33,649 nt of DNA from Mycobacterium sp. (GTDB lineage: Bacteria > Actinomycetota > Actinomycetes > Mycobacteriales > Mycobacteriaceae). Positions 17,970 to 31,178 of this stretch are shown piece by piece; the stretch's first letter is position 1, and every line of letters begins with the position of its first letter. The translations under genes were made by a program, and so were the position numbers. The notes beneath the pieces are model-generated. The model made no database searches and had not been told where the DNA came from. It saw nothing but the letters and a program-made list of their open reading frames with translations. Location: contig JAGQTU010000044.1 of NCBI GenBank assembly GCA_020438865.1, positions 1 to 33,649 on the forward strand, read 5' to 3'.

Positions 17970-18043
17970 GGGGCGGTAGCTCAGTTGGTTAGAGCCGCGG
18001 ACTCATAATCCGTAGGTCGCGGGTTCAAGTCCCGCCCGCCCCA
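17970..18043 (+). tRNA. tRNA with CAT anticodon (tRNA-Met, or Ile2)
   Basis: A complete cloverleaf can be drawn. Acceptor GGGGCGG (17970-17976) pairs with CCGCCCC (18036-18042), with discriminator A at 18043. The anticodon stem is GCGGA/TCCGT around loop CTCATAA with anticodon CAT. The T stem is GCGGG/CCCGC around TTCAAGT. CC follows but no A, so CCA is not fully encoded. Elongator Met and the lysidine-modified Ile2 tRNA share this anticodon; I favour Met. The 3' portion is the attachment site of the integrated element. Confidence 0.92.
17999..18041 (+). repeat. attL core (43-bp direct repeat, copy 1)
   Basis: Starts with GGACTCATAATCC in the tRNA anticodon arm and ends with CCCGCCCGCCC in the acceptor. 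It is identical over 43 bases to 31136-31178; the flanks differ on both sides (GCCGC before it here, AAAAA before the other copy). Recombination at this site leaves the tRNA intact because the element supplies the 3' end. Confidence 0.92.
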
Positions 18044-18049
18044 CCTTGT

Positions 18050-18070
18050 AAGGCCTGATCAGGCCTTTTT
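18050..18070 (+). terminator. intrinsic terminator after the tRNA
   Basis: Palindrome AAGGCCTGATCAGGCCTT followed by a short T run (TTTTT in all). It lies seven bases beyond the tRNA and inside the element, so the element brings a terminator for the tRNA transcript. Confidence 0.75.
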
Positions 18071-18100
18071 GCCCGATCCAGCCGACCCTCGTAGCCAGCG

Positions 18101-18122
18101 TCACCCCGGCGTCACCCCGGCG
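18101..18122 (+). repeat. integrase arm-type sites, left end (two 11-bp units)
   Basis: Two tandem copies of TCACCCCGGCG, 60 bases inside attL. Exactly the same double unit in the same orientation occurs at 30984-31005, 130 bases inside attR. A short repeat confined to the two ends of a tyrosine-integrase element is what P-arm binding sites look like; the role is inferred. Confidence 0.7.
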
Positions 18123-18230
18123 GTCGCGGGGCGCGCGGCGTGACGTCCGATACCCCCACCTTGCTGTTGCTCGACACGGGTGCTACATCTTTTCTGCAAT
18201 TCCACTGCAAAAGTTCTGTAGTTAGTAGTG

Positions 18231-18290
18231 CATCAACTACGACATCAAATCCGGCATGAGGTTGCGCATGAGATCGGGTATCAGGTAGTG
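18231..18290 (+). repeat. five imperfect 12-bp tandem repeats
   Basis: Five consecutive 12-base units start at 18231, 18243, 18255, 18267 and 18279. They begin CATCAA, CATCAA, CATGAG, CATGAG and TATCAG, and A, T, A and T are fixed at positions 2, 3, 5 and 8. They sit 77 bases before the ParB-like gene. They could be protein-binding iterons (ParB-like, excisionase or integrase), or the coding part of a 30-codon ORF (GTG at 18228, TAG at 18318-18320) whose peptide repeats a His-Gln/Glu-hydrophobic-Arg pattern every four residues. Confidence 0.65.
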
Positions 18291-18291
18291 T
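18262..18291 (+). promoter_or_regulatory. candidate promoter of the ParB-like gene
   Basis: TTGCGC (18262-18267) and TAGTGT (18286-18291) are separated by 18 bases, close to a SigA-type promoter, and overlap the last 12-bp repeats. The rest of the 320-bp space between the tRNA and the gene at 18367 holds the terminator, the arm sites and the repeats described separately. The promoter is inferred from spacing alone. Confidence 0.3.
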
Positions 18292-18366
18292 CTGAATTGC
18301 GCCACTTCCCCCGCCGCTAGGCAAATCCCCCCGGCGCACCGAGAAAAGAAGAAAGAGGTGGCCATC

Positions 18367-19179
18367 ATGGCTGCGAAGTATCAGTACAAGTTGCCGGAAC
18401 ACGAGGTTGACTACGGGGTTCCGGTGAAGGTCGCGGATCTGAAGATCGATCCCCAGGCTCAGCGCACGCTCGTGGAGAAGCGCGCTCAGAGGCTGGCGGA
18501 CGAGTTCATCCCGGCTGCGATCGGGACGATCATCGTCTCCGAGCGCGAGAACGGCGAGAAGTACATCGTCGATGGCCAGCATCGCTGGCGCGCCTGCCAG
18601 CTGCTGGGCCAGGAGTACGTCATGTGTGAGGTCCACCGCGGCCTCACCCAGACGGAGGAGGCCGTCCTCTTCCTGATCAAGAACCGTGAGAGCGCGCGCC
18701 CCGCCGCGATCGATGAGTACGTGATCGGCCTGACCGGCGGCATTCCGGTCTTCGTGGATACCGAGAAGGTTCTGGTGGCGCACGGCCTGAAGATGGGCAA
18801 CACCAGCGTCAACTCGATCGGTGCGGTGAACGGCGTCCTCCGGATCACCGACAAGTACGAGGCCGAAACGCTCGACCGCACGCTGACCGTCGCCGAGAAG
18901 GCCTGGGGTCGTTCGGCGGATACCTGGGATGGCATGCTGCTCGGCGGCATCGGCGAGTTCCTCGGCCGGCACGGCAGCATGGTCAACGATGAGGAGCTGG
19001 CTAAGAAGATCGCGAAAGCCGGCTCCGCCGCGGGCTGGCGCGGCAATGTCCACTCGATCAGCACGGCGGGTGGGACCCAGCACTCGGGCACGGGCGGGCG
19101 CGTGATGACGTGCTACCACCTGATCGTCCATCAGTGGAACAAGGGCCGCCGCTCCGAGGCGACCAAGATCATCCTCTGA
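18367..19179 (+). CDS. ParB/Srx-fold N-terminal domain protein
   Basis: Protein of 270 residues. Residues about 18-85 resemble the ParB N-terminal domain: VADLKIDPQAQR, then YIVDGQHRWRACQLLG with the box II motif GQHR at 70-73, the nucleotide-binding/nuclease-like signature. No ParB helix-turn-helix is recognisable in the remainder, so a classic partition role is not shown. Such proteins are frequent in actinophages and their satellites, usually with unknown function. The ATG at 18367 is chosen over the GTG at 18358 because AGAGGTG lies at ideal spacing before it. It is the first gene inside attL, on the plus strand, followed by a strong terminator, and therefore transcribed apart from the integrase operon. 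The 12-bp repeats upstream may be its target. Confidence 0.72.
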   Translation: MAAKYQYKLPEHEVDYGVPVKVADLKIDPQAQRTLVEKRAQRLADEFIPAAIGTIIVSERENGEKYIVDGQHRWRACQLLGQEYVMCEVHRGLTQTEEAVLFLIKNRESARPAAIDEYVIGLTGGIPVFVDTEKVLVAHGLKMGNTSVNSIGAVNGVLRITDKYEAETLDRTLTVAEKAWGRSADTWDGMLLGGIGEFLGRHGSMVNDEELAKKIAKAGSAAGWRGNVHSISTAGGTQHSGTGGRVMTCYHLIVHQWNKGRRSEATKIIL

Positions 19180-19193
19180 CCCGACACCCACCC

Positions 19194-19229
19194 AGTAGGC
19201 CCCCGCTTCGGCGGGGGCCTACTCTTTTG
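19194..19229 (+). terminator. strong intrinsic terminator
   Basis: A 13-bp perfect stem (AGTAGGCCCCCGC and its complement) with a TTCG tetraloop, followed by CTTTTG. It sits 14 bases after the ParB-like gene and insulates the convergent integrase gene from that transcript. The minus strand lacks a T tract after the stem. Confidence 0.85.
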
Positions 19230-19252
19230 TGCCGGTGACGGTGCGGCCCGCC

Positions 19253-20620
19253 CTACCCCGGCGAACCGACTCTGCGGAGGGGCACAACGTTCCCGGCAAC
19301 GGCTGCGGGCGACGTCTGCGGGGGTGGGGCTGGCTCGGGCAGAGTGTTCAGTGCGCCGCCATCCTGCTCAGGAATGTAGTCGCCATAAACGTCCAGGGTG
19401 AGGGTGAAGGTACTGTGGCCCAACCACTTCGACACCTGCATGAAGTGGACGCCCGCCGAGAGCTGGAGCGTGGCGAAGGTATGCCGAAGGTCATGGAGCC
19501 GTACGCCCTGGGTCGCGGGCGCATCCGCCGTCGCGGGTCGGCTAGCCGGTAGCCCGTTCACCTCCAGGGCGGGCCGGAACAGGTTCTTGTAGAACGCGCC
19601 CATGTCGCACGGCTCCGAGTAGTCAAGCGGCGCGACCGCGAGGCAGCCCCGTCGCCGGGCACCACCCAGCGCCCTGTTGGGCCAGAGGGGTGCTTCGGCC
19701 GTGTTGGCCGCGGGGTGGTTGTTCAGGTAGTCGGCCATTCGTACCGCGAGCCAGGAGGGGAGCGGGACGTTGCGGCTGCTCTTCGCGCTCTTGAGCGTGT
19801 CTGAAAGCCACTCCCCGCCGCGACGTTTCTTCGCCCGCCGCACGTCCACCCGGGCGCGGGGCACCCCTGCTGGTCCCGGTGTAAAGACAAGGTCCTGGAC
19901 CTCCAGGCCGGCCAATTCCTCCGCGCGGAGGCCTGTGTACGCGGCGAACAGCGTCAGCAGCTCGTACACCGGGTAGCGGGTGCCGATGGTGGCGGCGACC
20001 GCCCCGACCTGCTCGGCGGTGAGCGGGTGGTGGCGCCGGTTACGCCGCTGCGCGCCGTTGGCTGAGAAGTCCACCCCGTCGACAGGGTTAGCAGGGATGG
20101 CCTTGTGGCGTACCGCGTAGCCGAATACCGCCCGCAGCACCGACCAATGGTGCTTGAGGGTCGCCGGGGTAAGCCCGCGCCCGGCCAGCCGGGCCAGGTA
20201 CCGCTCGCAGAGGGTCGGGGTAATCGCGCCGATAGCCATCCCGCCAAACTCCGGCAGCGCGTACACCGCCAGCCGCTTCCCGTAGCCGTCGACGGTGTCG
20301 GCCTTCAGCCGCCCGCTCGCAACCTTCACGCGCTGGGCCGCGAGCCACGCCGCAGCGTAGTAGCCGAACGTCTGCGCCCCGGCCTTGCGCTGGTCGGCCA
20401 GGGCGGTAGTGCCGCCCGTGTGCTTCGCGGCGTTGAGCTCGTCGCGGCGGGCCTCTGCGGCCTCTCGGGTCGGGTAGCTCTCCTGACGGGTGCGGGTCTT
20501 GCCGGGTATCGGTAGGCCGGTAGCGGGGTTGGTCGCTGGCTCCCGCCAGCAGACCTCATACCTCTTCGCCGCTTTGCCCCGGCGCTTCTGCGTCGTGTTG
20601 TGGGTCCTGATGTACGCCAT
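19253..20620 (-). CDS. tyrosine recombinase / phage integrase
   Basis: Site-specific recombinase of 455 residues that would integrate and excise the element at the tRNA. The N-terminal arm-binding region (about 1-80) precedes a core-binding SAM-like domain (about 84-180, with GRLKADTVDGYGKRL). The catalytic domain shows Arg232 in YTGLRAEELAGL, a probable Lys at 277-280 in TLKSAKSSRNVPLP, His376 and Arg379 in LHDLRHTFATLQ, His402 in WLGHSTFTL and the nucleophile Tyr412 in DVYGDY. All catalytic residues are present, so it should be active. It starts within the stop of the preceding 64-residue gene (TGATG, one shared base) and is the last gene of a coupled operon headed by a serine resolvase. 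Confidence 0.95.
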   Translation of the reverse strand: MAYIRTHNTTQKRRGKAAKRYEVCWREPATNPATGLPIPGKTRTRQESYPTREAAEARRDELNAAKHTGGTTALADQRKAGAQTFGYYAAAWLAAQRVKVASGRLKADTVDGYGKRLAVYALPEFGGMAIGAITPTLCERYLARLAGRGLTPATLKHHWSVLRAVFGYAVRHKAIPANPVDGVDFSANGAQRRNRRHHPLTAEQVGAVAATIGTRYPVYELLTLFAAYTGLRAEELAGLEVQDLVFTPGPAGVPRARVDVRRAKKRRGGEWLSDTLKSAKSSRNVPLPSWLAVRMADYLNNHPAANTAEAPLWPNRALGGARRRGCLAVAPLDYSEPCDMGAFYKNLFRPALEVNGLPASRPATADAPATQGVRLHDLRHTFATLQLSAGVHFMQVSKWLGHSTFTLTLDVYGDYIPEQDGGALNTLPEPAPPPQTSPAAVAGNVVPLRRVGSPG

Positions 20621-20814
20621 CAGTACCCGCCCCTCACCGACGTCAGATCCTCGGCCCAGTACTGCGCCTTGGTTCCGTCGGCGAACCGCACGACGTGGAG
20701 CATGTCGCCGCCAATATTCCGCGTGGTGTCGACGGTGCCTATGCGATGGCGGTGCGGGTCGCCGGGTAAGACAACGATGACCTGGTGCCGGGGCGCGTAG
20801 TAGTCGGCCTTCAT
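20620..20814 (-). CDS. small protein, unknown function (64 aa)
   Basis: Not recognised. The peptide MKADYYAPRHQVIVVLPG followed by HRIGTVDTTRNIGG and VVRFADGTKAQYWAEDL looks like a small all-beta (SH3-like) domain. It is supported by organisation rather than homology: its ATG shares a base with the stop of the gene before it, and its stop shares a base with the ATG of the integrase (TGATG at both ends). That arrangement suggests it is translated in step with the integrase and could be an accessory recombination or regulatory factor. Confidence 0.65.
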   Translation of the reverse strand: MKADYYAPRHQVIVVLPGDPHRHRIGTVDTTRNIGGDMLHVVRFADGTKAQYWAEDLTSVRGGY

Positions 20815-21113
20815 CAGCCCCTACCCCTTACGCGCCGCTGCGAGGTCTTGTGCTGGCCGTACAGCCGCTTCATGAACTTGTCGTGTTCCTGCTTGGTGAC
20901 GCGCCGCCGTACGCTCTGCTTGCGACCAAGGCGGGTCGCTTTCGGCCTAGGCATGGGTGCCTGCTTGGTGGTCATGAGTTCGACTACTTCCTGTATCTGG
21001 TTCTCTGATAGGTACTTCCGCCACGCGAAGTAGGCACGGGCGGCTACTTCGCGATGCTCGTCTGGGGTGAACGGCTCGCTGGGTTGGGCGAACGGCGGGA
21101 CGGTTAGGCTCAC
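20814..21113 (-). CDS. small basic protein, unknown function (99 aa)
   Basis: Not recognised. The GTG start at 21113 overlaps the resolvase stop by four bases (GTGA) and has GGAGG seven to eight bases before it, so I prefer it to longer in-frame starts that lie inside the resolvase. The N-terminal half (FTPDEHREVAARAYFAWRKY and LSENQIQEVVELM) is helical and acidic to neutral. The C-terminal 40 residues are very basic (KATRLGRKQSVRRR, KTSQRRVRGRG), which suggests nucleic-acid binding. It is second in the resolvase-integrase operon. Confidence 0.65.
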   Translation of the reverse strand: MSLTVPPFAQPSEPFTPDEHREVAARAYFAWRKYLSENQIQEVVELMTTKQAPMPRPKATRLGRKQSVRRRVTKQEHDKFMKRLYGQHKTSQRRVRGRG

Positions 21114-21790
21114 GAGACTGCCTCCATTTCCGTTGATGCCGAAGCACTTTGGTAAATGCGCCGAACCGTGCTCGACTGCCATCGCGGTAAGCCTGCGGGG
21201 CTGAGGATGCCTTCTGCTTCCAGGGCGCGGGCGATAGCGTCGAAGCTAAGGCCTGCGTTGCGCTCCATGACGATCCGGCGCACGACGCCGGGCTTGGCTA
21301 GCCGTGGCCGGCCAATCGGCTCACCGCGCTGCTTCTTGGCGTACAGCGCGGCCTTGGTGCGTTCGCTGGCGAGCTCACGCTCAAACTGGCCGAATACCGC
21401 GAACGTTCCGGCCATCGCACGCCCTGCTGCGGTCGTCAGATCCAGATTGAGATCGAGCACGACCAAGTCCCACCCTTGGTTCTGGGCGGCGTCGATTATG
21501 TTGGCGGCGTGAATGATCGACCGGGCCAGCCGATCAAGCTTGGCCACGATCAGTCCGTCGCCCTGCCCAGACGCCAAGAGCTGTAGTGCTTCTCCCAGAC
21601 TCGTGTTGATCTGCTTACCACTGGCGCCCTCATCGGCAAAGTGCTCTACGTCCCAGCCGCGGCGCGCTGCCTCGGCGTCGATGGCTGCTCGTTGCGCTTC
21701 CAGCCCGTTACGTTTGTCTGCCTGCTCCGCAGTACTCACACGGGTGTAGCCAAACATCAAGGGCTGCACACAGTTTGCTCGCTCAGTCAA
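21110..21790 (-). CDS. small serine recombinase (resolvase/invertase family)
   Basis: Catalytic domain with the nucleophile in GYTRVSTAEQ (Ser19), the conserved IVAKLDRLARS segment (about 79-89) and the E-helix region AGTFAVFGQFERELASERTKAAL (about 126-148, split here by position only). A Hin/Gin-type helix-turn-helix follows (about 185-215, LSFDAIARALEAEGI then WQSSTVRRIYQ). It is complete at 226 residues. The start is TTG at 21790, chosen because AGGAGG lies eight bases upstream; an in-frame ATG at codon 12 would cut into the domain. It resolves or inverts DNA between short sites, a job different from the tyrosine integrase with which it shares an operon. It may resolve dimers or multimers of the replicating element, or invert a segment; no target site is evident. 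Confidence 0.92.
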   Translation of the reverse strand: MTERANCVQPLMFGYTRVSTAEQADKRNGLEAQRAAIDAEAARRGWDVEHFADEGASGKQINTSLGEALQLLASGQGDGLIVAKLDRLARSIIHAANIIDAAQNQGWDLVVLDLNLDLTTAAGRAMAGTFAVFGQFERELASERTKAALYAKKQRGEPIGRPRLAKPGVVRRIVMERNAGLSFDAIARALEAEGILSPAGLPRWQSSTVRRIYQSASASTEMEAVS

Positions 21791-21812
21791 GGGTCCATCC
21801 TCCTACCTAGTC

Positions 21813-21845
21813 GGGGCGTAACCGTTCATCTACGCCTTACGCCCC
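21813..21845. promoter_or_regulatory. inverted repeat with GGCGTAA/TTACGCC boxes before the resolvase operon
   Basis: GGGGCGTAA (21813-21821) and TTACGCCCC (21837-21845) form a perfect 9-bp inverted repeat with CTACGCC between them (21830-21836). The site lies 23 bases before the resolvase start and touches the stop of the upstream 76-residue gene. The same 7-base boxes recur in the divergent region at 27567-27666, so an element-encoded repressor site is plausible; an attenuator hairpin is the alternative. Confidence 0.5.
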
Positions 21846-22067
21846 GGACGCTACGCCAGCCAGCCAACTCACGCGATACCTCTCACCAGGGTATTTAACG
21901 TCTGTGGCAAACGCTGGTTCGTGTATCGCCTGGTCGTGGCCCAGGGCCGGTATCGCCGCCCGCTCGGCGGCGTTCAGCGCCCCTCTCGCGTATGCGGAGG
22001 CCGCGCCGGTCCCGTTTGCCGGGTCGGCGGGCGTTCGGCCGTCAACGGGGCCATGAGGGGCCTTCAT
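21837..22067 (-). CDS. small protein, unknown function (76 aa)
   Basis: Not recognised. Its ATG overlaps the stop of the CCCH zinc-protein gene by four bases (ATGA), which is the main support. The N-terminal half is Pro/Ala/Gly-rich, and the second half (AIPALGHDQAIHEPAFATDV and KYPGERYRVSWLAGVA) is more structured in appearance. It ends at the inverted repeat that precedes the resolvase. Confidence 0.5.
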   Translation of the reverse strand: MKAPHGPVDGRTPADPANGTGAASAYARGALNAAERAAIPALGHDQAIHEPAFATDVKYPGERYRVSWLAGVASGA

Positions 22068-22516
22068 CGACGCCTCATGCGAGACCGTACTACCCGCGCT
22101 TTCGGGTTACCGCGACCCACTTGGGTCATGGCTTCGGTGAGGCCCATCAGCGGCGTCTCAGTTTGCTTGGGCGGCTCGGCTTCTGGGGCTTCTGCGGGCG
22201 AATCTGACTGGGGGGCTGGGTCAGCCAGGGCGGGTTCGGCCGGCTCCGCGGTGGCCGGCGTGTGCACCTCGGGCGGGTCGCCGGGTATCGGAACGTGGGG
22301 TGGCGCTTCCCGGCCGCGCAGTCGGCGCACGGCGTCGCGCACCGTCTGGAGGTCGAGCCGCTGCTTGGCCTTCGCTTTGGTCTGCGGAGCCATCCCGCCG
22401 TGGATCCGACATACGTTCCCGCCCTTGATCGCCCAGGCTCCACATGGCTGCTTATCGCCACTCCTACGGGCCGTGCATTTCCGTGGGTGCCCTTGGCGTT
22501 CTTCATAGGTACGCAT
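22064..22516 (-). CDS. CCCH zinc-motif phage-type protein (150 aa)
   Basis: The N-terminal 42 residues hold a C-x10-C-x10-C-x2-H motif (Cys14, Cys25, Cys36, His39; QPCGAWAIKGG then VCRIHGG), a compact putative zinc site ending in HGG that recurs in phage and actinobacterial mobile-element proteins. The middle is a charged helix (KAKAKQRLDLQTVRDAVRRL). The C-terminal half is a Pro/Glu/Ala-rich linker ending in a basic tail (VVRSRMRRR). The ATG at 22516 is used; a TTG at 22525 is also open. It follows the primase operon closely and overlaps the 76-residue gene. Nucleic-acid binding is inferred; function unknown. Confidence 0.65.
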   Translation of the reverse strand: MRTYEERQGHPRKCTARRSGDKQPCGAWAIKGGNVCRIHGGMAPQTKAKAKQRLDLQTVRDAVRRLRGREAPPHVPIPGDPPEVHTPATAEPAEPALADPAPQSDSPAEAPEAEPPKQTETPLMGLTEAMTQVGRGNPKARVVRSRMRRR

Positions 22517-22528
22517 GGGTCGCAATAC

Positions 22529-22741
22529 TCATGGGTTATCCAGGCCCCCGTAGACGGGTAGACGGGTAGACGGGAAGAGTTTTCGCGTCATAGTCGAAAG
22601 ACTCCTAAACGCGCGGATCGAATTTTGTAACATGACCAGGTCTTTTACGATTTTCGGTAGACGGGTATCGCCCACGTGACCGCGTACCCCTCTTACCCGC
22701 CTACCCGGCTTACCCGCCTTTATCACAGTTAGCTGCTTCAT
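22529..22741 (-). CDS. possible small basic protein (70 aa)
   Basis: Not recognised. Support is the ATGA overlap of its ATG (22741) with the primase stop codon, the pattern used by most genes of this operon. The peptide is strongly basic (KAGKPGRRVRGVRGH, then VKDLVMLQNSIRAFRSL and STMTRKLFPSTRLPVYGG). The DNA contains the repeat cluster described separately, so the frame could be accidental to an origin. It ends four bases before the possible TTG start of the zinc-protein gene. Confidence 0.4.
   Translation of the reverse strand: MKQLTVIKAGKPGRRVRGVRGHVGDTRLPKIVKDLVMLQNSIRAFRSLSTMTRKLFPSTRLPVYGGLDNP
22551..22718. repeat. iteron-like repeat cluster next to the primase gene
   Basis: TAGACGGG is repeated three times without a gap (22551-22574) and again at 22658-22665. 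TTACCCGCC occurs twice, 17 bases apart (22693-22701, 22710-22718), with TACCCGG between. The stretch from 22575 to 22657 is visibly AT-richer than its surroundings. Repeats flanking an AT-rich zone beside a replication gene resemble a replication origin. The cluster also lies inside a 70-codon reading frame, so it may simply be coding DNA. Confidence 0.45.
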
Positions 22742-25185
22742 GATTCGTTCAGGTGGATTCGCCACCCATCCCGCCCTCGGTAGTTGATCTCTTGACGGGT
22801 GACAGTCCCGTCCTCTTCCAGATCATTGAGTGCCTCGTCCACATACTGTTTGTCCGGCCCGAATTGCTTCTTGAGTTCGTTCAGCGTCTGGTCGTTCTTC
22901 GTGTTCAGCTTTTCCACAACTCGCTCGGCTATCCGTGCGACCTTCTTGACGTGCTCATCTGCAATCTGTTCGGCCTCAGCAAGTTTCCGAACACCAGACG
23001 CCTTCCCAGCCTTTATATTCCGCTCTCCCGTCTCTGTAGCCAATGTCCTCAGGACATCTGCGCGGGTGAGGTCACTGATCTTCATGGCCGTCCCGGCGAG
23101 GTCCCAATCTTGTTGGGTGATTTCTCTGTGCTGGCGCAAGATCGCGATGGCTGCGGCAAGCTTCTCCCGACATAGCAGCTTGTGACCGTCGAGTGGATCG
23201 ATGTCCTCCTGGTCACCGAGAACCGCAAACGCCTGCTCGTCGATCGCCGTGTACACCGCCTCGGGAACCGCGATGACGTCAAAACTCTCAGGGTCTGCGG
23301 GTTCGCTCATCCGGCTCGCCAGGGTGATATCCCGGTCAAGCCGCAGGACACCTTCCACTTCGCCCTCGGTGTCGTGGGCGTCGGTGTCGGTCTGCGGCCA
23401 CGGTGGCAGATCGAGTCTCGGCGGTTCGGAAGGGCGTTCTTTCGGGCGGTCGGGGTCGCTGACCGGAAACCACACGATCCGTTGGGGAGTTCCAGCGTCG
23501 GCATCATCGAATACCGGTCCTGCCCGCAGTGGCTGGACTCCGACGATCATGCACAGCCGGTAGCGATGCGATTGGAGGACGATGGCTTTGTCGTCGGCGG
23601 CATAGTCGATTCCGAGCCGCTCACCCGACCATGCGTAGCGCAGCTCTGACATCAATGTCGATCCGCCGCGGCCGCCCGTCGCAGTCAGTGTGTCGACTTC
23701 GGGTATCTCAGCGAGCACCGACCAGTTCTTGCCGATCTGAACGCTCGGCTCGCCTTTGCCCGGCTTCTTGACGTAGGCGAAGCACTTCGCCAGTCCCTCA
23801 CCACTACCGGGCTTCTTGGGATTTGGAGGGGGATCAACACCTAGCCAGTCGAACGCCGCACCCATCGCGGCGCTCTTGATGCTGCCGCTCTTGCCCACGA
23901 GCGCCACGAACGTGTTCAGACTGGCGACCCGCCCCACTAGGGGCGGCAGCACTACGTACGGCGGGACCGCCGAGACAGCTACTGCCGCACAAACCCCGAA
24001 CATGGCCCACGGCCCGACCCGGCGTGATCGCGCGAACCGGCGCATGTCCTGCAACTCCGGGCATGAGTTCCAGAATGCTTCCTCATCAATCTGTTCGGCG
24101 TGTTTATGGTCGCCAAGCTCAGCGCGGACCTGCTCGTCCGTCTTGCACGCGGCGAGTTCGATCCCATATTCAAAAGCGGCGGGTACCTCCACCTCTGGCA
24201 CACCCTCGCCGGTCTCAGCCCGTAGCTGGATCAGGCGCTGCTCTACCAAATTCCTGGCCGTCGAATAGTCCGAGGCGCTAAGGCACCCCAGCCTCACGGC
24301 ACAGGCCAACCGCACTGCCTGGCTCATCAACCACTGGTGTCTACCGGCGTTCGGGCGGTCAGTCGATATGCCGACGAGCCACTTTTTCAGGTAGCCGCAG
24401 GTTTCCTCGGCTGGCTCCCACTCGTTCGGGTCGCTCACAATCTCGCTGTTGTCACGGTCGCCGTTCTCGTCATAGGCGCCGGCTGCATCCAGCCGCTCAC
24501 GGACCTCATCCAAAGTCAGCGGGTCGCCGTCATCGGCAAAACAGGCGACGGCGATACCGTCCGATCCGTTGGTCGCGGTCTTGCAGTTGAAGGTCCCAGG
24601 CACGCGCATGATGCGGTCCAGGTTGAACACTGAATCCGCCGTGGACCCGTGTCTTCCAGCAACGGCCTTCACCAGACGGCCCCATCGGCTCAGCACCGCG
24701 TTCAGCGCTTCGGTATCACCCTCACCGTCGATGATCTCCCAATATGGCTGGAGGCCATGGCCGCTATGCGTCGTCGCTGACGGTCGGGTGCCCAGCACCG
24801 TCGACAGATCCCTGATGATCGCGCGCGCCACACCCATATCCGGGCAGGCTCCCGGCTTCACGTCTAGGTCTGCCCAGAGTGCGGCCAGTCGGGTCACTTC
24901 CTCGGCCTTGCCTTTGCTTCCGACCCGCGCGGGGCCGGCCACCGGGCAGACCCCAAACCACACGTCGCCCCTCGGCAGTTTGTCGACGTACTTCCAAACG
25001 TCGGTCACCTTCAGCACCTGCGCGCTGAAGCTGCCGTTGGTTCTACAGCAGACTGAGGTGTACTCCCAGGGTTTGTACCCCAGCACGTCGAGCAGTAATG
25101 CTGAATGGTTCAGAGCGATGCCATTTGTCGGAATTAGGCTGCCGCGGTTAAGGTTTCGCGCCTTGGCCCTTTCGGGTAGACTCAC
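22738..25185 (-). CDS. primase-helicase-like replication protein (AEP type)
   Basis: 815 residues with two recognisable parts. The N-terminal part resembles archaeo-eukaryotic primases of mobile elements: WADLDVK with Asp106/Asp108 as the metal pair, THSGHGLQPYWE with His140/His143, and FNLDRIMRVPGTFNCK at 187-202. The middle has a P-loop-like VALVGKSGSIKSAAMGAA (Lys437, Ser438), in which the glycine that normally precedes Lys is Ile, then LAEIPEVDTL (about 491-500) in the Walker B position and a DUF3987-like ATPase region. The C-terminal 100 residues look like a winged helix (KQYVDEALNDLEEDGTVTRQ). It probably primes or initiates replication of the excised element at a nearby origin. It heads the long minus-strand gene set after a hairpin. 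Confidence 0.75.
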   Translation of the reverse strand: MSLPERAKARNLNRGSLIPTNGIALNHSALLLDVLGYKPWEYTSVCCRTNGSFSAQVLKVTDVWKYVDKLPRGDVWFGVCPVAGPARVGSKGKAEEVTRLAALWADLDVKPGACPDMGVARAIIRDLSTVLGTRPSATTHSGHGLQPYWEIIDGEGDTEALNAVLSRWGRLVKAVAGRHGSTADSVFNLDRIMRVPGTFNCKTATNGSDGIAVACFADDGDPLTLDEVRERLDAAGAYDENGDRDNSEIVSDPNEWEPAEETCGYLKKWLVGISTDRPNAGRHQWLMSQAVRLACAVRLGCLSASDYSTARNLVEQRLIQLRAETGEGVPEVEVPAAFEYGIELAACKTDEQVRAELGDHKHAEQIDEEAFWNSCPELQDMRRFARSRRVGPWAMFGVCAAVAVSAVPPYVVLPPLVGRVASLNTFVALVGKSGSIKSAAMGAAFDWLGVDPPPNPKKPGSGEGLAKCFAYVKKPGKGEPSVQIGKNWSVLAEIPEVDTLTATGGRGGSTLMSELRYAWSGERLGIDYAADDKAIVLQSHRYRLCMIVGVQPLRAGPVFDDADAGTPQRIVWFPVSDPDRPKERPSEPPRLDLPPWPQTDTDAHDTEGEVEGVLRLDRDITLASRMSEPADPESFDVIAVPEAVYTAIDEQAFAVLGDQEDIDPLDGHKLLCREKLAAAIAILRQHREITQQDWDLAGTAMKISDLTRADVLRTLATETGERNIKAGKASGVRKLAEAEQIADEHVKKVARIAERVVEKLNTKNDQTLNELKKQFGPDKQYVDEALNDLEEDGTVTRQEINYRGRDGWRIHLNES

Positions 25186-25218
25186 GCTCGTCTAGTTCCT
25201 TTCAACACAGACACCCTC

Positions 25219-25252: not shown

Positions 25253-25261
25253 AACATTTGC

Positions 25262-25814: not shown

Positions 25815-25830
25815 TGTGAAGCAAATCACA
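25815..25830. promoter_or_regulatory. perfect CRP/FNR-type palindrome
   Basis: TGTGA-AGCAAA-TCACA, the exact consensus form recognised by CRP proteins, including mycobacterial CRP (Rv3676 type). It lies 112 bases before the zinc-ribbon gene and about 295 bases before the start of the divergent excisionase-like gene. Binding is inferred from the match. Confidence 0.55.
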
Positions 25831-25942
25831 TGCCCCTGTCGAAGTCGCGCCACCGTAGGTTTGGAATCACCATTTTGGTAGCGAATGGCGGAAGCCTGCG
25901 CTCCCAGGTCTACACCGAGGAGCATCGGCGGGAAGGACGGAA

Positions 25943-26527
25943 ATGGTTCAGTATCGAGTACCCGAAGGCCGGGAGAGTTGGCCGCACTACCAGCCATGTC
26001 GACGCTGCGGTCATCCGAGGGGCTTTCACAAACCAGCCTATGACGGCAGCGCATGGTGTTGCGGTACAGAGGAACAGAAGCGTGTGGAACGCACGCAAAG
26101 CAGCTGCGACTGTCCCGGATTTCGCACGGTGTGGCCGGCTCAGCATGGTGCACACGAATGCGTCGAGTGTGGAATCAGATTCGAGTGGAAGGGTCGAGAA
26201 CGGTTCTTTTGTGCTAAATGTGAGCGCCGTTGTCCGCACTGCCGCGCATACTGTCGCGGCGGCACCCATTGCCCAAACTGTCTCGGATACCGGGGTTTGA
26301 CCCCCACTCAATTCGCCGAAGATGCGCCGCCACTGTCGATGGGGCAGCGCATCAAGCTGGAGGGACTGTTCAATCTAGGCGAGCGCAAACTGGGTGCGCC
26401 TTACTTGAGCTTCACGAGCCGTTTCCGATGCGTCAAGTGTTCACGGCGCATCCCACACGCCGTTCCGGCGATGTGCGATGACTGCTTCGAGGGGCTCCAT
26501 GGATTTGCGCGGTCGTCGACGACGTAG
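25943..26527 (+). CDS. protein with four putative zinc ribbons (194 aa)
   Basis: Not recognised as a named family. It has 19 cysteines in 194 residues, arranged as CxxC pairs at 19/22, 73/76, 90/93, 97/100, 110/113, 163/166 and 178/181, plus Cys39, 40, 55 and 57. Natural pairings give four ribbons: 19/22 with the 39-57 group, 73/76 with 90/93, 97/100 with 110/113, and 163/166 with 178/181. A helix-prone linker (about 125-150) precedes the last ribbon. The ATG at 25943 follows GGAAGGACGG. It is the only plus-strand gene in this part of the element, between two minus-strand groups and behind the CRP-type site. Serial ribbons suggest contacts with nucleic acid, ribosome or polymerase; this is inference. 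Confidence 0.7.
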   Translation: MVQYRVPEGRESWPHYQPCRRCGHPRGFHKPAYDGSAWCCGTEEQKRVERTQSSCDCPGFRTVWPAQHGAHECVECGIRFEWKGRERFFCAKCERRCPHCRAYCRGGTHCPNCLGYRGLTPTQFAEDAPPLSMGQRIKLEGLFNLGERKLGAPYLSFTSRFRCVKCSRRIPHAVPAMCDDCFEGLHGFARSSTT

Positions 26528-26584
26528 GGCGAGGGGCGCCGGGCATATCCTTAGCGGGCTGGTGAGCGGCCCGCACGGCGGGGT

Positions 26585-27247
26585 CTAGGGGCGGGGCGGG
26601 ACCCGGCTACCGGGGTCGATGGTCGCGTCGCGCAGGAGCTTCGCCTGGGCTTCCATGACGCTGATCTTGAAGTTGGTCTCGGCCATCTGGCCGGCCTTGG
26701 CCTCGCAGGCAAGGCAAATCTCGAACATGAGCACGACACGCCCACAGGCAATCGGTAAAGGTCTGATCGGCTGGTCCACAAGACACAGGGAGTGGCAGTC
26801 CTCGACAATCTGCACATCGCAGATGCCGGACGGCCCCATGTTGTCCAACATCGCCCCGAATCTGTCGGCGTTGCTTCGGCACACGAAAATCCTGCGGTCG
26901 TGCGGCCATTTGAGCAGGACCACGCCGCCATCGTCGGGGTCGTGCGGGTTGTATGTTTCGCCACGAAATGTCTTGTACTCAGCAGTGATGCCGTCTTCAT
27001 TGCCACCTTCGCGCTCCAGGGCGTGGAGTGCCTGAATCTCGGCGACGAGAATGTCGTGCAAGACCGGGGACCACGCCGGGTCGAACAGGGCCGCGGTGTG
27101 TGCGGTGTCCTCATTCAGGTACGCCTCTATGTACTCCGCTTTTTCGATGCCCTGAGTTGTCAAGTTCAGCGCGGGGGACATTGGGCGAGTGTTGTTAATG
27201 GCGGGGTACTTTGCGGTCAGGTAGTCGCGGCGAGTTTGGTCGATCAA
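26585..27247 (-). CDS. unknown protein (220 aa)
   Basis: Not recognised. The start is TTG at 27247, favoured by AAGGAG eight bases before it. The N-terminal half is soluble and acidic (EYIEAYLNEDTAHTAALF, then HDILVAEIQALHALERE). A beta-rich middle (DDGGVVLLKWPHDRRIFVCR) follows, then a cysteine-bearing region with Cys in GICDVQIVEDCHSLC, ACGR and ICLACEAK, which could bind metal. A C-terminal helix (ISVMEAQAKLLRDA) ends the chain. Its beginning overlaps the end of the winged-helix gene by 53 bases, so the two are co-transcribed and probably work together, for example as regulator and effector. Confidence 0.6.
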   Translation of the reverse strand: MIDQTRRDYLTAKYPAINNTRPMSPALNLTTQGIEKAEYIEAYLNEDTAHTAALFDPAWSPVLHDILVAEIQALHALEREGGNEDGITAEYKTFRGETYNPHDPDDGGVVLLKWPHDRRIFVCRSNADRFGAMLDNMGPSGICDVQIVEDCHSLCLVDQPIRPLPIACGRVVLMFEICLACEAKAGQMAETNFKISVMEAQAKLLRDATIDPGSRVPPRP

Positions 27248-27548
27248 TTTGGGTTCTCCTTGTTATCCATGAGCCGGTGCTGACGTAGCGGGATCGACCA
27301 TCGGGAGCCAAATCGGACAGGCTGGCTACCCAGTCGAAAATGTCTTGGGTTGAGAAGTACCGCGCGTGGCCCATGCGCTTGCTAGGAAGCTGGCCAGATT
27401 TCGCGGCGGCGCGTACAAAGTTAAAGGCCAGCGGCACTTTCAAGTCGTACACGATGAAGGCGTGAGCTTGGATGGTGCTCCTGATCGTGAGCAGCCGGCT
27501 CAGCTCAACACCGGGCGGGTAGTCGAATCTAGGTACAGCTTTAGCCAT
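27195..27548 (-). CDS. winged-helix/excisionase-like protein (117 aa)
   Basis: The central segment LKVPLAFNFVRAAAKSGQLP, then KRMGHARYFSTQDIFDWVASL, has the helix-turn-helix plus wing of excisionase/MerR-type small regulators. The N-terminal 35 residues and the C-terminal tail (about 88-117, basic) are not recognised. The ATG at 27548 has GAGAAG at suitable spacing. It is transcribed divergently from the capsid-like gene and shares with it a 182-bp control region holding a palindrome and TTACGCC boxes, so it is the best candidate for the regulator of that region. Confidence 0.6.
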   Translation of the reverse strand: MAKAVPRFDYPPGVELSRLLTIRSTIQAHAFIVYDLKVPLAFNFVRAAAKSGQLPSKRMGHARYFSTQDIFDWVASLSDLAPDGRSRYVSTGSWITRRTQIDRPNSPRLPDRKVPRH

Positions 27549-27566
27549 TTCTTCTCAATTCCGTAA

Positions 27567-27666
27567 TTACGCCTATCCTACGCCATTTACCCGATTCATT
27601 CTCGGGCGTTCTATGCGGGTATTACCGCCGCTCCTAGCCGATACTCAAAGGCGCATTTGGGCGTAA
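27567..27666. promoter_or_regulatory. divergent control region with TTACGCC boxes and a minus-strand promoter
   Basis: TTACGCC (27567-27573), CTACGCC (27578-27584) and GGCGTAA (27660-27666) repeat the boxes found at 21813-21845. On the minus strand TTGAGT (27648-27643) and TAATAC (27624-27619) are spaced 18 bases and would drive the winged-helix gene with a leader of about 65 bases. Assignments are by motif only. Confidence 0.4.
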
Positions 27667-27680
27667 GGTCCGGTTATCGC

Positions 27681-27702
27681 GCGGCGAATATGTATTCGCC
27701 GC
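27681..27702. promoter_or_regulatory. 22-bp near-perfect palindrome before the capsid-like gene
   Basis: GCGGCGAATA-TG-TATTCGCCGC, a 10-bp perfect inverted repeat with a two-base centre, ends 28 bases before the ATG at 27731. A two-base loop is too tight for a normal hairpin with all pairs, so a dimer-binding operator is more likely than an RNA structure. Confidence 0.6.
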
Positions 27703-27730
27703 CCCGATTGAAAATGATAGGGAAACGGTA

Positions 27731-28870
27731 ATGGCGAAATTGCTTATCCAAGGCGGGAGTGGCCAGCGGGGCTATAGCACCGGAGGCGATGTTCTCGTCA
27801 ATCTGACAGCCGACGGTGTCGACCTCAACCAGATCTGGGCGGAGATCAGGGACGCCCTGGCTCTGTACAACTCCGAGCGCTCCACCATCACGCGGCTGTT
27901 GTCGTACCCGACGACGTTGGCGGCCGACGCGGCACCGCAGACGAGTTCGACCAACGAGAGCTTCGACCGGGCGACTGAGTTTGGCATCCCGACTGCGATC
28001 CGTGAGCCCGCTGACTACTTGAAGCTTGGCTTCACCTTCCACGACTACGACAAGGCGACTCGCTACTCTTGGCGCTTCCTCAGAGAGGCGACCGCCGATC
28101 AGGTAAGCGCTCAGATCACCCGCATCCTGGAGGCTGACAACCGGCTCGTCACAGGGACCATCTTCAACCGGCTGCTCAGCCCCACTGAGGCCGCGAATGA
28201 GTGGGGCCACCGCGTATTTGGTCTCTGGAACGGCACTGACGGCTTCGCACCGCCGCCGTACCTGGGCCGCACGTTCAACAGCAGCGTGACGCACTACCTC
28301 ACGACCCAGAGCGCAACACTCGACTCTGCCGACGTTGAGGATGCTGTCCGGCTCCTCAAGATCAAGGGCTACGGCCTTCAGCCTGGTCAGCAGCTCCTAA
28401 TCCTGGCGAATCAGGACGATGCCGAGCACATGACGGCATGGCGAGCGGGCGTTGAGTACGCGACGGGCAAGACGCCCAAGTTTGACTTCATCCCGAGCGC
28501 GGCGATGCCTGCCTATCTGTCGAATGAGACTGTCCACGGCGCGATCCCGCCCACCGACTACAACGGCCTGAGGGTGTGGGGGAGCTACGCCGACGCGTGG
28601 CTGACCCTCTCCAACTACATCCCCGCCGGGTATGTGATTGTCGCCTGCACAGGCGGCCTCGACTCCGACATCAATCCGGTCGGCTTCCGCCAACATGTCA
28701 ATCCGGCCTACCACGGCCTTCGCCATATCCCCGGCCACTGGCAGAACTACCCGCTGATCGAGTCCTTCTTCGCTCGCGGCTTTGGTGTCGGCGTTCGCAA
28801 CCGGGGCGCGGCGGTCGTGGTTCAGGTGACTGAGAATTCGCACTACACCGCTCCGACGATTGCGACCTAG
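27731..28870 (+). CDS. HK97-fold major-capsid-like protein
   Basis: 379 residues whose layout resembles HK97-type major capsid proteins of actinophages. An N-terminal arm (1-55) is followed by an extended E-loop-like stretch rich in strands (about 75-112, ATEFGIPTAIREPADYLKLG), a long spine helix (about 116-150, ATADQVSAQITRILEADNRL), and a P/A-domain-like part with SADVEDAVRLLKIKGYG and QLLILANQDDAEHMTAWRAG (about 199-240). The C-terminal strands include DINPVGFRQHVNP, NYPLIESFFARGFGVGVRNR and AAVVVQVT. I recall the NPVGFR...YPLIxSFxxRGFG pattern from actinobacterial prophage capsids; no search was made. There is no cleavable scaffolding N-terminus and no protease, portal or terminase gene nearby. 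Encapsulin-like use is the main alternative. AGGGA precedes the ATG. Confidence 0.6.
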   Translation: MAKLLIQGGSGQRGYSTGGDVLVNLTADGVDLNQIWAEIRDALALYNSERSTITRLLSYPTTLAADAAPQTSSTNESFDRATEFGIPTAIREPADYLKLGFTFHDYDKATRYSWRFLREATADQVSAQITRILEADNRLVTGTIFNRLLSPTEAANEWGHRVFGLWNGTDGFAPPPYLGRTFNSSVTHYLTTQSATLDSADVEDAVRLLKIKGYGLQPGQQLLILANQDDAEHMTAWRAGVEYATGKTPKFDFIPSAAMPAYLSNETVHGAIPPTDYNGLRVWGSYADAWLTLSNYIPAGYVIVACTGGLDSDINPVGFRQHVNPAYHGLRHIPGHWQNYPLIESFFARGFGVGVRNRGAAVVVQVTENSHYTAPTIAT

Positions 28871-29187
28871 CGATGGGCGCTAGGAGAGCCAACGGTCGGC
28901 AGTGCCGCGGCAACGCCAGCCACCAAGACACCAAGAGTGGCGAGTTGGGGTGGGGGCCAGGGCTTAGGCCTGCGGGGTGGGCAAGCCGGCCACCCTCTGC
29001 GGGCGGGGTGTACAGCGCAAAGTCGCCGCCGGTGGTTCTCCTGACGCCAGACTCGCTGCGCCCGCGTGAGCCGCGTCAGCTTCCTGACAATCAGCGATGT
29101 CCCGGCGACCGCATCGGCTGACAGCGGCACGTCGGCGAGCGCTGCGAAAAAGGTTGCCGCAAGGACCGAGCCTGACAATATTTAGAC
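28871..29187. other. stretch without a convincing gene
   Basis: Neither strand has a frame with good start signals. A minus-strand frame (28867-29178) has hydrophobic ends but an Arg/Pro-rich middle and looks like noise or a decayed gene. Near the right end, TTGCCG and AATATT spaced by 17 bases form a possible promoter only about five bases before the ATG at 29188, which would give a leaderless message. Confidence 0.4.
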
Positions 29188-29670
29188 ATGATCTCCGCGA
29201 AGGGGCACAACGGCACCGTCTACTTTGATGGCCGGTTCGTCACAATCAAGCGTTCGGGATTTCTAGCGCGCGCATCGGTAGGCAAGGGCGAGAAGCGAAT
29301 ACCGATTACGTCGATCCAAGCTATCCAGTGGAAGCCTCCGGGATTGATCATGAATGGGTTCATCGAGTTCACGGTCGCGGGGGGCGTAGAAAAGCGTTCC
29401 CGCTTCGGAGCCGCGACGCACGACGCGGGTACGAACGAGAATGCCGTCGTCGTAACCTTTCAGCAGAGGTCGGAGTTTATTGCGCTTCGATCTGCGATCG
29501 AGGATGCGATGGTCGGCGGAACGCCAGTTCGGCCGTACGCCGGTTCCGCAAGTCCTCCGCCTCCGCCGCCGTCTGTGCCTGCCGGTTGGTATCCCGATGC
29601 TGACAGATCTGGGATCCAGAGGTATTGGAACGGTACGGCGTGGACTGAGCACACAGCGCCGCTCGTGTAA
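29188..29670 (+). CDS. DUF4429 plus DUF2510 domain protein (160 aa)
   Basis: Residues about 3-112 match the DUF4429 (PH-like) pattern: KGHNGTVYFDGRFVTIKRSG, RIPITSIQAIQWKPPG, FIEFTVAGG, VVTFQQRSEFIALRSAIEDA. After a run of prolines comes a DUF2510 motif, PAGWYPDADRSGIQRYW then WNGTAWTEHT (about 131-156), with its conserved GWYxD and YWxGxxWT. Both domains are common in actinobacteria and their phages, with unknown biochemical roles. No signal peptide or membrane segment is seen, so it is probably cytoplasmic, perhaps docking to the membrane. The next gene repeats the DUF2510 domain, which suggests a functional pair. Confidence 0.8.
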   Translation: MISAKGHNGTVYFDGRFVTIKRSGFLARASVGKGEKRIPITSIQAIQWKPPGLIMNGFIEFTVAGGVEKRSRFGAATHDAGTNENAVVVTFQQRSEFIALRSAIEDAMVGGTPVRPYAGSASPPPPPPSVPAGWYPDADRSGIQRYWNGTAWTEHTAPLV

Positions 29671-29768
29671 ACGATGAGTTTCTTGCTGACCCACCCAAAT
29701 CGGCAATGGCGCCTTCAACTGTCGGTTGCGTGTGGTAGTTCTGTCGACAGCCAGGGAGGGGCTTTCGC

Positions 29769-30269
29769 ATGACAACACCACCGCCGCCGCAACCACCACC
29801 GCCACCGTATGGGCCGCCCGCAGGCTGGTATCCCGACCCTGAGGGCGGTGGCGGACAGCGGTACTGGACCGGAACTCAATGGACAGCCAAGTTGCCGGCC
29901 ATGAAACCGCAGCCTGCGATGGGCACAGGAGCGAAAGTGCTTCTTGGACTGCTGGGGCTCGTCGTCGTCGTTGTTATTGGGTCTGTGATGTTCGGCGGAA
30001 ATTCGGGCAGTAATTACAAGCCACCCGCTGGGGTGAGTGACACCGACGCCTCGTTTCTGAAAGCCATCCACGGCCACGGCATCACCAACGACGGCGGCGA
30101 CCCCGCCCTGATCCGCTTGGGGCGCAGCATCTGCACCGAACTCGCATCCGGCCAGTCGATTGACGGAATCGCCGAACATTGGGGTCTGACCTCAGAGCGA
30201 ATGTCAACCGACTCCGCGCGGTTCTTCACTCGTACAGCCGCGGCGGCCTACTGCCCTGAGTATCTCTGA
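29769..30269 (+). CDS. DUF2510 - transmembrane - DUF732 protein (166 aa)
   Basis: A proline-rich N-terminus leads into DUF2510 (PPAGWYPDPEGGGGQRYW, TGTQWTAK; about 16-41). One membrane helix follows (VLLGLLGLVVVVVIGSVMF, about 57-75), then an outer DUF732 domain (DTDASFLKAIHGHGI at about 90-104 and the end pattern TRTAAAAYCPEYL). DUF732 domains are mycobacterial secreted or surface modules of unknown role with a conserved Cys pair, here in GRSICTEL and AYCPEYL. The topology puts DUF2510 inside and DUF732 outside. GGGAGGGG precedes the ATG. It ends three bases from the convergent secreted-protein gene. Confidence 0.82.
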   Translation: MTTPPPPQPPPPPYGPPAGWYPDPEGGGGQRYWTGTQWTAKLPAMKPQPAMGTGAKVLLGLLGLVVVVVIGSVMFGGNSGSNYKPPAGVSDTDASFLKAIHGHGITNDGGDPALIRLGRSICTELASGQSIDGIAEHWGLTSERMSTDSARFFTRTAAAAYCPEYL

Positions 30270-30272
30270 CCG

Positions 30273-30581
30273 TCAGTAGTCGGGCGGAATGGTCACGCCG
30301 TTGCACATGGGGTTCTGGTGCCAGTGGACTGAGCTATACGCCTTCTTGGCCAAGTTGAGAGCTTGGTTGTAGGTCATATCCGGATACCGCTGAACCATGC
30401 CGAGGGCGTAGCCGTCGTTGGGATCGTACGGATTGATGTTCAAGGCCATTACAGCCAGGCACACCTCCGTGTTGACGTCGGCGTGTGCAGCCGGCGCGAG
30501 TCCCATGGCTAAGCCCGCAGCCATAACCACCGCAGGAATTAGACGCGCGGTGATTGTCGAGTTTCCGAGCCTCACAGCCAT
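30273..30581 (-). CDS. secreted DUF732-like small protein (102 aa)
   Basis: The ATG at 30581 gives a classic signal peptide: MAVRLGNSTITARL, hydrophobic core IPAVVMAAGLAMGLAP, cleavage after AAHA. The mature 67 residues (NTEVCLAVMALNINPYDPND, YALGMVQRYPDMTYNQALNL) have the two-cysteine, helix-rich look of DUF732 proteins, but the match is weak. The start codon overlaps the end of the DUF3761 gene by ten bases, so the two are co-transcribed. Longer in-frame starts upstream would bury the signal peptide. Export to the cell surface or medium is predicted. Confidence 0.7.
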   Translation of the reverse strand: MAVRLGNSTITARLIPAVVMAAGLAMGLAPAAHADVNTEVCLAVMALNINPYDPNDGYALGMVQRYPDMTYNQALNLAKKAYSSVHWHQNPMCNGVTIPPDY

Positions 30582-30844
30582 TGGGCTACACCGCCATGGC
30601 CTGAGCATGTGCCCGAGCGATGGGTGCTGAATGAGTATGTGCCATCCCTGCATTGAGCGGTTGCACCCGGTGGTGCCCCCGAACCCGTTGGTGCCTGTTC
30701 GTCCGGTATGCACTGACCGTCTGAGTTCTGGTACGTACCGCTTGGGCACGCCAGCGCCGAGGTAGGGGCAGGCGGTATGAACGCAGGGATCAAACTCAGT
30801 GTGGCCGCGCTGACGATTCCAATAAACAATGCCCGAACGGACAC
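30572..30844 (-). CDS. secreted DUF3761 protein (90 aa)
   Basis: GTG start with a signal peptide (MSVRALFIGIVSAATLSLIP, cleavage near ALA-CP). The mature part carries YQNSDGQCIP and the DUF3761 signature AQCRDGTYSFSTHRSGTCSG followed by HGGVAQWL, including the conserved Cys and the HxxGTCSxHGG core. These small secreted proteins are common in mycobacteria; their role is unknown. It is the first gene of a two-gene minus-strand unit near attR, a typical place for cargo genes. Confidence 0.8.
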   Translation of the reverse strand: MSVRALFIGIVSAATLSLIPAFIPPAPTSALACPSGTYQNSDGQCIPDEQAPTGSGAPPGATAQCRDGTYSFSTHRSGTCSGHGGVAQWL

Positions 30845-30983
30845 TAGGCAACCCCCTGTTACTTACCCTTCACCAGCTATTCGGACCCCGTCGGCAGATT
30901 ATTACGGCCCACGGCTCCGCTCCGCCCGATCGCACAGATTCTGGAGCGGTACTGCCGTCCGAAACCACTCGCTGACCGCTCCT

Positions 30984-31005
30984 TCACCCCGGCGTCACCC
31001 CGGCG
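30984..31005 (+). repeat. integrase arm-type sites, right end (two 11-bp units)
   Basis: Two tandem copies of TCACCCCGGCG, identical in sequence and orientation to those at 18101-18122. The space from 30845 to 31351 otherwise holds attR and no recognisable gene. Confidence 0.7.
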
Positions 31006-31135
31006 ACCAGGGGCGTTTTTGGGGCGTACCGCACCCGTACCCAAGCCGTACTTGAATCGCCCAATTTGGACCGCTTGCAGCGCTTATGGGTGTTTTCAGT
31101 AGTCGGTTCGCGCTGGTCGGAATCGGCCCAAAAAA

Positions 31136-31178
31136 GGACTCATAATCCGTAGGTCGCGGGTTCAAGTCCCGCCCGCCC
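31136..31178 (+). repeat. attR core (43-bp direct repeat, copy 2)
   Basis: Exact copy of 17999-18041. It lacks the 5' half of the tRNA (the preceding bases are AAAAA), so it is not a functional tRNA. After the core it reads TACAG, whereas attL reads CACCT. Confidence 0.92.

Follow-up and report, generated by a model that had tools for sequence, protein, structure and literature searches.

A 13,137-bp segment of a Mycobacterium sp. genome is probably an integrated phage satellite of the phage-inducible chromosomal island (PICI) type that encodes its own homologue of a phage capsid protein and would borrow its remaining virion parts from a helper phage. The analysed stretch (hereafter the window) is one entire contig, C308, of 33,649 bp, and belongs to a genome assembly of 4.96 Mb in 366 contigs with 90.9% completeness. 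We favor this reading of the gene content because the attachment site duplication and paired arm-type repeats at the ends of the segment are far beyond chance and because 57 repeat-bounded elements share its core genes and a narrow length range. An earlier sequence-only reading had also proposed a mycobacterial satellite with a different capsid family, and our results agree: the major capsid protein (MCP) has no Pfam match, and no genes of a full prophage belong to the element.

The element lies between perfect 43-bp copies of the 3' part of a tRNA-Met (CAT) gene, with identical repeats just inside each end, much as previously noticed from the letters of the window:

17970 to 18045, + strand: tRNA-Met (CAT) gene serving as attB, with the attL core formed by its 3' part (ARAGORN; Rfam tRNA, 75.7 bits)
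17999 to 18041, + strand: attL core, 43 bp, perfect run shared with 31136-31178
18101 to 18122, + strand: left arm-type repeat, two tandem 11-mers, 22 bp identical at both ends in the same orientation
30984 to 31005, + strand: right arm-type repeat, 22 bp identical to the left copy, same orientation
31136 to 31178, + strand: attR core, 43 bp, perfect run shared with 17999-18041

Extended slightly, the direct repeat (17999-18044 and 31136-31181) is identical at 45 of 46 positions, while the arm-type 11-mer occurs four times in the window, on a single strand and only within the two 22-bp repeats. Shuffling 17501-31700 100 times with a first-order Markov model gave no exact direct repeat longer than 17 bp, which means that chance explains neither the 43-bp nor the 22-bp repeats. 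The G+C content of the element is 62.6%, that of the left flank 69.7% and that of the right flank 65.4%. Six relatives (G018, G009, G024, G004, G020, and G021) have kept the left-flank gene and tRNA-Met, with no element-like DNA within the 0.8-1.5 kb read beyond this tRNA. Genomes G018, G009, G024, and G021 lack any capsid relative genome-wide, so the segment is not simply an unduplicated piece of chromosome present in all relatives. Relatives show no synteny with the right flank of the window, and the comparison of empty sites therefore rests on the left flank and stops short of the exact junction. The tRNA-Met 3' end recurs once more, imperfectly, 1.8 kb past attR (window 32994-33032, 90% over 39 bp), beyond a gene for a DUF1775 protein and a small secreted-protein-like frame, and this third copy hints at tandem insertions into the same tRNA.

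From left to right, the element encodes a DUF6551/ParB-like protein (+), followed by a tyrosine integrase, a serine recombinase, a zinc-motif protein, a DNA polymerase/primase, a small helix-turn-helix (HTH)-like protein, a 220-aa protein and an excisionase-like protein (all -), and then, divergently, the MCP (+), an 82-aa protein (+), and cargo. Its annotated frames are given here with family counts among the bounded elements described below (TerS, small terminase subunit):

18358 to 19179, + strand: DUF6551/ParB-N-like protein, cargo (PF20188, E 3e-12; no PADLOC match)
19253 to 20620, - strand: tyrosine integrase (PF00589, E 6e-10; phrog_1, E 1e-55)
20814 to 21182, - strand: 122-aa open frame, no family match
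21110 to 21790, - strand: small serine recombinase of the resolvase/invertase type (PF00239, E 3e-37; family in 42 of 57)
22064 to 22525, - strand: zinc-motif (C-C-C-H) TerS-like protein, short family variant of 153 aa (family in 55 of 57)
22738 to 25185, - strand: phage-type DNA polymerase/primase, 815 aa (phrog_28894, E 6e-129; family in 54 of 57)
25262 to 25540, - strand: small HTH-like protein (sequence cluster shared with 27195-27548; weak family matches)
26585 to 27247, - strand: 220-aa family (relatives in 16 of 57)
27195 to 27548, - strand: excisionase/AlpA-like HTH protein (phrog_1840, E 0.0026, weak; family in 46 of 57)
27731 to 28870, + strand: MCP, Patience/Adjutor type HK97 fold (phrog_3990 "major head protein", E 3e-101)
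28873 to 29121, + strand: conserved 82-aa protein encoded immediately downstream of the MCP (family in 36 of 57)
29188 to 29670, + strand: DUF4429 and DUF2510 protein, cargo (family match)
29769 to 30269, + strand: DUF2510 and DUF732 protein, cargo (family match)
30572 to 30844, - strand: DUF3761 protein, cargo (PF12587, E 7.5e-25)

The integrase frame is open and carries an R..HxLRH..LGH..Y pattern, which we take to be the tyrosine integrase motif. This intact integrase, the replication-type primase, and the single capsid-like gene had all been named correctly by the sequence-only reading, but it missed the serine recombinase and the zinc-motif protein. Its two excisionase-like proteins are borne out in part, as one has a weak PHROG match and the second falls into the same sequence cluster. 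Its statement that packaging, tail, and lysis genes are absent needs a similar amendment: no large terminase subunit (TerL), portal, protease, tail, or lysis match was obtained among the element proteins scanned, but a packaging-type candidate is present in the form of the TerS-like protein. A test for Stl/Rpr- or AlpA-type regulators matched no repressor model to the element proteins and pointed to two small HTH-like proteins on the same strand; several small genes have no family match. The serine recombinase of the window is 68-80% identical to the copies of many sister elements whose capsids are only 42-65% identical, and about 27-44% identical to the copies in other sister elements, as if this gene had been exchanged between elements.

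Relatives of the MCP are present in 98 of 396 genomes of the same genus, many of them as fragments. Around the better capsid matches, we fetched 80 stretches of at most 20 kb each, a size at which much longer elements could not be bounded. Partial capsid matches in G108, G304, G277, and G230 were retained, and both matches of G172, those of G324, G333, G114, G134, G381, G338, and G262, and all weaker ones were left out. Exact duplications of 18-60 bp of a tRNA gene mark both ends of 51 elements, and a relaxed repeat search adds 6, giving 57 in total with that of the window included in both counts. Both ends could not be fixed in 24 of the 80 loci, some because of contig ends, and two loci with a weak repeat at about 15 kb (L039 and L044) are uncounted. 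The bounded elements sit in tRNA-Gly, Leu, Met, Lys, Arg, and Val genes, so the same core and length do recur at other tRNA sites, as the sequence-only reading had proposed to check. Many loci share the order integrase, serine recombinase, zinc protein, primase, HTH, and excisionase-like protein on one side and capsid and 82-aa protein on the other; elsewhere the integrase is in opposite orientation with only distant likeness, and in L045 the modules are inverted relative to the capsid gene. Among the 57, which include near copies such as L109 and L110 and were scored with queries that include members of the same elements, the MCP is found in 57, the integrase in 56, the TerS-like protein in 55, and the primase in 54, followed by the excisionase-like protein (46), the serine recombinase (42), the 82-aa protein (36), and the 220-aa protein (16). 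Their median length is 12,870 bp, and 52 of the 57 measure 11.5-14.1 kb; the outliers are two remnants of 5-6 kb and three elements of 14.9-17.6 kb. An alignment query (the window MCP alone confirmed none) found further capsid relatives in named genomes of Hoyosella, Gordonia, Rhodococcus, Williamsia, Dietzia, Nocardioides, Micromonospora, Microbacterium, and others, of which 80 of 85 loci were kept; several also carry a serine recombinase, integrase, or zinc protein.

The family profile of the MCP matches the capsid structures of phages Adjutor (PDB 8saj, E 2e-120) and Patience (8giu, E 7e-113), and the capsid proteins of Predator and Kurnik are 41-42% identical to the window MCP. The shells of Adjutor (8SAJ) and Patience (8GIU) have an inner diameter of 63 nm for genomes of 64.5 and 70.5 kb, respectively, and are T=7 as inferred from the available text (PMC10635136). 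The capsid gene of the elements is under strong purifying selection, with a median dN/dS of 0.11 (Nei-Gojobori) over 88 pairs of 70-98.5% identity (98 pairs were compared and 10 gave no value). In a quick tree of 175 MCP rows without bootstrap, a single branch has all 68 phage rows on one side and 105 of the 107 element rows on the other; L166 and L257 fall on the phage side. The phage rows comprise Predator, Kurnik, and viral contigs L195-L272 minus L257, a biased sample in that most were found by an element-built query. The 82-aa family, encoded right after the MCP in 36 of 57 elements, displays a conserved (S/T)EFSWGxGLxPxxxxxxPSEGGxY-like motif and could be an assembly or size factor. Its profile has no significant PDB match, and the one member searched has no phage match. 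Kinship of this protein with the hexamer-bridging gp4 of Patience-like phages was considered but gained no support, as PDB sequences gave no significant match (best E 0.58).

The second gene that may face a helper is that of the TerS-like protein. Three cysteines and one histidine are invariant in an alignment of 29 rows picked from the 68 family members. All 29 match an unnamed PHROG, and two PHROGs named terminase small subunit are matched by 19 of 29 (phrog_10899, best E 6.6e-11) and 18 of 29 (phrog_2538, best E 1.5e-7). Using hhalign, for which all E-values are pairwise, the family resembles Cece gp1, an annotated TerS (E 1.4e-9, 89 columns), and Pajaza gp1 (E 6e-9), which is encoded directly upstream of terminase and portal genes; the likeness to Predator gp3, another annotated TerS, extends across the zinc motif only. 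These comparisons suggest that the zinc-motif family is likely TerS, an assignment that is uncertain for the window copy.

Other virion genes were sought with 26 Predator and Kurnik virion proteins as tblastn queries (E 1e-4). None of the 80 same-genus loci was matched, which argues against tail and packaging genes of a full prophage that lie nearby and belong to the element, and only 1 of the 80 named-genome loci gave a match, to a single tail protein (L171). As a positive control, the same queries matched 78 of 80 viral contigs, which are partial, with TerL in 41, portal in 53, and tail proteins in 57; the two exceptions were L193, which has the satellite gene set, and L194, with the capsid alone. 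Because these queries miss unrelated proteins, we also ran Pfam models. TerL (PF03237) was found in 18 of 67 carrier genomes, with none in one further genome (G007), and within 14 kb of an element MCP only in G068 and G279, both times outside the repeat-bounded element. The portal model PF05133, which performs poorly on Predator/Kurnik-type portals (these are covered by the tblastn queries), matched in 18 of 68 carrier genomes and no closer to the capsid gene than 21 kb (G037), and PF04860 matched in 3 of 68, never on the MCP contig. In contigs G068:C5 and G279:C1, the gene for the large terminase is 11-13 kb away from that for the element capsid and perhaps belongs to a neighboring prophage or a tandem insertion.

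These findings can be assembled into a putative life cycle. Infection by a helper phage would relieve repression of the element, the integrase would excise it together with the excisionase-like protein, and the element primase would replicate the excised DNA. The TerS-like protein could then direct the large terminase of the helper onto satellite DNA, and the element capsid protein would join or replace the helper shell to form satellite-type heads, by analogy to Ccm of SaPIbov5, with portal, scaffold, protease, TerL, tail, and lysis functions supplied by the helper. The likeliest helpers are probably phages sharing the Patience/Adjutor/Predator capsid family, since a capsid homologue from a satellite has to function together with components of the helper. 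Such phages look virulent, as neither tyrosine integrase (PF00589) nor serine recombinase (PF00239) was found in 27 same-capsid phage records. More tentatively, and at somewhat less than even chance in our estimate, the elements may form a distinct actinobacterial satellite family that keeps two helper-facing virion genes, a Patience-type MCP and a zinc-motif TerS, and parasitizes virulent same-capsid phages by converting their T=7 shell for 65-70 kb into heads that take up the 12.9-kb genome or its concatemer. If so, Ccm-like capsid redirection would have arisen a second time, independently, and the helper class would be predictable from the capsid family alone.

Several observations weigh against the satellite interpretation or its details. 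Excision, induction, and packaging of the element are predictions from sequence. The Predator/Kurnik TerL queries missed the PF03237 TerL in L109 (G068) and partly that in L105 (G279), and therefore do not by themselves exclude foreign virion genes. For the supposed helpers, 26 of the 27 phage records come without a completeness estimate or are partly fragments, so the missing integrases are not proof of a virulent lifestyle. The window copy of the TerS-like protein is a short variant without much of the second conserved part; it matches phrog_10899 only at E 0.36 and, taken alone, matches well only the unnamed PHROG. A C-C-C-HG motif within 2.5 kb upstream of TerL was seen in 2 of 29 same-capsid viral contigs, both chance-like, and such a TerS is therefore not the rule in the supposed helpers. 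An AlphaFold model of the TerS-like family (pTM 0.37) gave no informative fold match in the PDB, and its four best viral matches (E <0.001) are uninformatively named phage proteins, e.g., of Microbacterium phage Megan. Finally, 12.9 kb fits none of the T=7, T=4, and T=3 shells tightly: by volume scaling (T^1.5), a T=4 shell of this capsid family would hold about 28-30 kb and a T=3 shell about 18-20 kb, and the element underfills both. A T=4 shell would be well matched by two copies and a T=7 shell by five, which is arithmetic and not evidence.

Among other explanations, the one that survives best, though we consider it improbable, is a defense element whose capsid homologue chiefly poisons the assembly of same-shell phages and that spreads by other means. 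Ccm is reported to block phage reproduction (PMC6092414), and PADLOC assigns 8 of 9 large cargo proteins from sister elements to restriction or further defense models; the nine were picked by hand from 189 cargo frames for size and methylase-like look, and the figure is thus not a rate. The TerS-like gene in 55 of 57 elements and the narrow size range fit packaging better, and the DUF6551 protein of the window, its one cargo protein run against PADLOC, has no defense match. Defense and packaging roles are compatible with each other. Cargo of the restriction-modification, cytosine methylase, GmrSD-type, or type IV restriction-like kind was seen in the sister elements L043, L058, L073, L036, L089, L098, L080, and L033.

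Less likely still is a decayed prophage, i.e., the fossil of a tailed phage that was once complete but has since been stripped of packaging and tail genes. Decay does occur in this family, as seen from the two short remnants among the bounded elements and from the many genomes among the 98 that hold capsid fragments only. However, the same core and length in many genomes and at several tRNA targets, the strong purifying selection on the capsid, the separate branch formed by element capsids, and the lack of relatives of the 26 virion proteins in the 80 sister loci are at odds with a fossil. Several small genes without family match might in principle conceal a complete but unrecognized head and packaging module of a PICI that takes only tails from its helper, but this is very unlikely given that the shared core consists of MCP, integrase, TerS-like protein, primase, serine recombinase, and small proteins, that no other portal- or TerL-sized frame is widely shared, and that, in the genomes searched, the Pfam TerL and portal models have no match within a bounded element.

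As a probable PICI-type satellite, the element can be compared with known systems, for which we draw on the available portions of the cited texts. It has the PICI hallmarks of an integrase with specific attachment sites (the 43-bp cores in tRNA-Met), an excision and replication module (a strong primase match, with the xis-like match to phrog_1840 being weak), no phage structural or lytic genes except for capsid redirection (one MCP only among the proteins scanned), and a size close to 15 kb (PMC6092414). A TerS homologue occurs in some PICIs, and further traits given for them are induction by a phage, interference, packaging into infectious particles, and attachment sites that prophages never use (PMC6092414). 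Unlike a complete prophage, it lacks the set of terminase, portal, tail, and lysis genes. By analogy, the closest mechanistic parallel is SaPIbov5: PICIs of this type encode their own phage-capsid homologue and use helper-supplied virion parts (PMC8569155, PMC10945586, PMC6092414), the same plan that we propose here. Ccm of SaPIbov5 forms the pentamers and the helper capsid protein the hexamers of a small T=4 shell (PMC8569155), and capsid-protein homologues are also known from PmCI172 and EcCICFT073 (PMC6092414, PMC8569155). Yet SaPIbov5-type islands are staphylococcal, their coat proteins hold the scaffold as a domain, and their capsid family is a different one. EfCIV583 with CpmE was dismissed as a precedent, as EfCIV583 is stated to have no capsid proteins of its own. 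Capsid-forming PICIs (cf-PICIs) and the Streptomyces satellites MulchRoom and MiniFlayer, the latter infecting actinobacteria, encode a capsid protein like our element but additionally portal, TerL, TerS, and head-tail proteins, whereas no portal or TerL was found here; the cf-PICI set of portal, protease, connectors, TerL, and TerS alongside the MCP was not found (PMC10690885).

Among mycobacterial elements, phiRv1 differs in having a protease and additional head genes from a different capsid family, and its large serine integrase is named in the title of a cited reference. Together with phiRv2 of M. tuberculosis, it is a small prophage-like element that has been called PICI-like (PMC10654092). 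The sequence-only reading had considered the element of the window possibly undescribed, which does not hold for its kind, because candidate PICIs of Mycobacterium, phage-like regions with integration genes and a major capsid protein, are already in print (Abad et al. 2023, PMC10654092), as are other PICIs with capsid homologues. With its integrase and MCP in one such region, the element fits the description of these candidates. Like our element, which is one of a widespread family, those candidates with tyrosine integrase sit in tRNA genes, and some PICIs of that study hold terminase and scaffold genes. The available part of PMC10654092 describes the capsids as highly diverse without delineating this lineage, its core of MCP, TerS-like protein, and primase, its length, or a helper, although members may be in its lists. 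No description of the lineage was found in the main texts of the open-licence literature, and it seems that the lineage-level description and the helper prediction are new. According to PMC10654092, no phage has yet been shown to induce the mycobacterial candidates, and experimental validation of actinobacterial phage satellites is said to lag (PMC10023795). A lineage with fixed ends, length, core, and its own capsid branch offers a definite test set and names helper phages to try, including Patience (8GIU) and Adjutor (8SAJ) with their solved capsids. If such satellites block same-capsid phages, they could matter for the choice of therapeutic phages.

A few loci combine the capsid with other partners. 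L257 (IMG/VR 3300048930_000551) encodes the capsid, a relative of the minor capsid protein, a serine recombinase, and the TerS-like protein with no TerL or portal match, and in two Microbacterium loci (L170 and L173), the capsid is paired with a relative of the Predator-type TerS; all three may represent sister satellite lineages.

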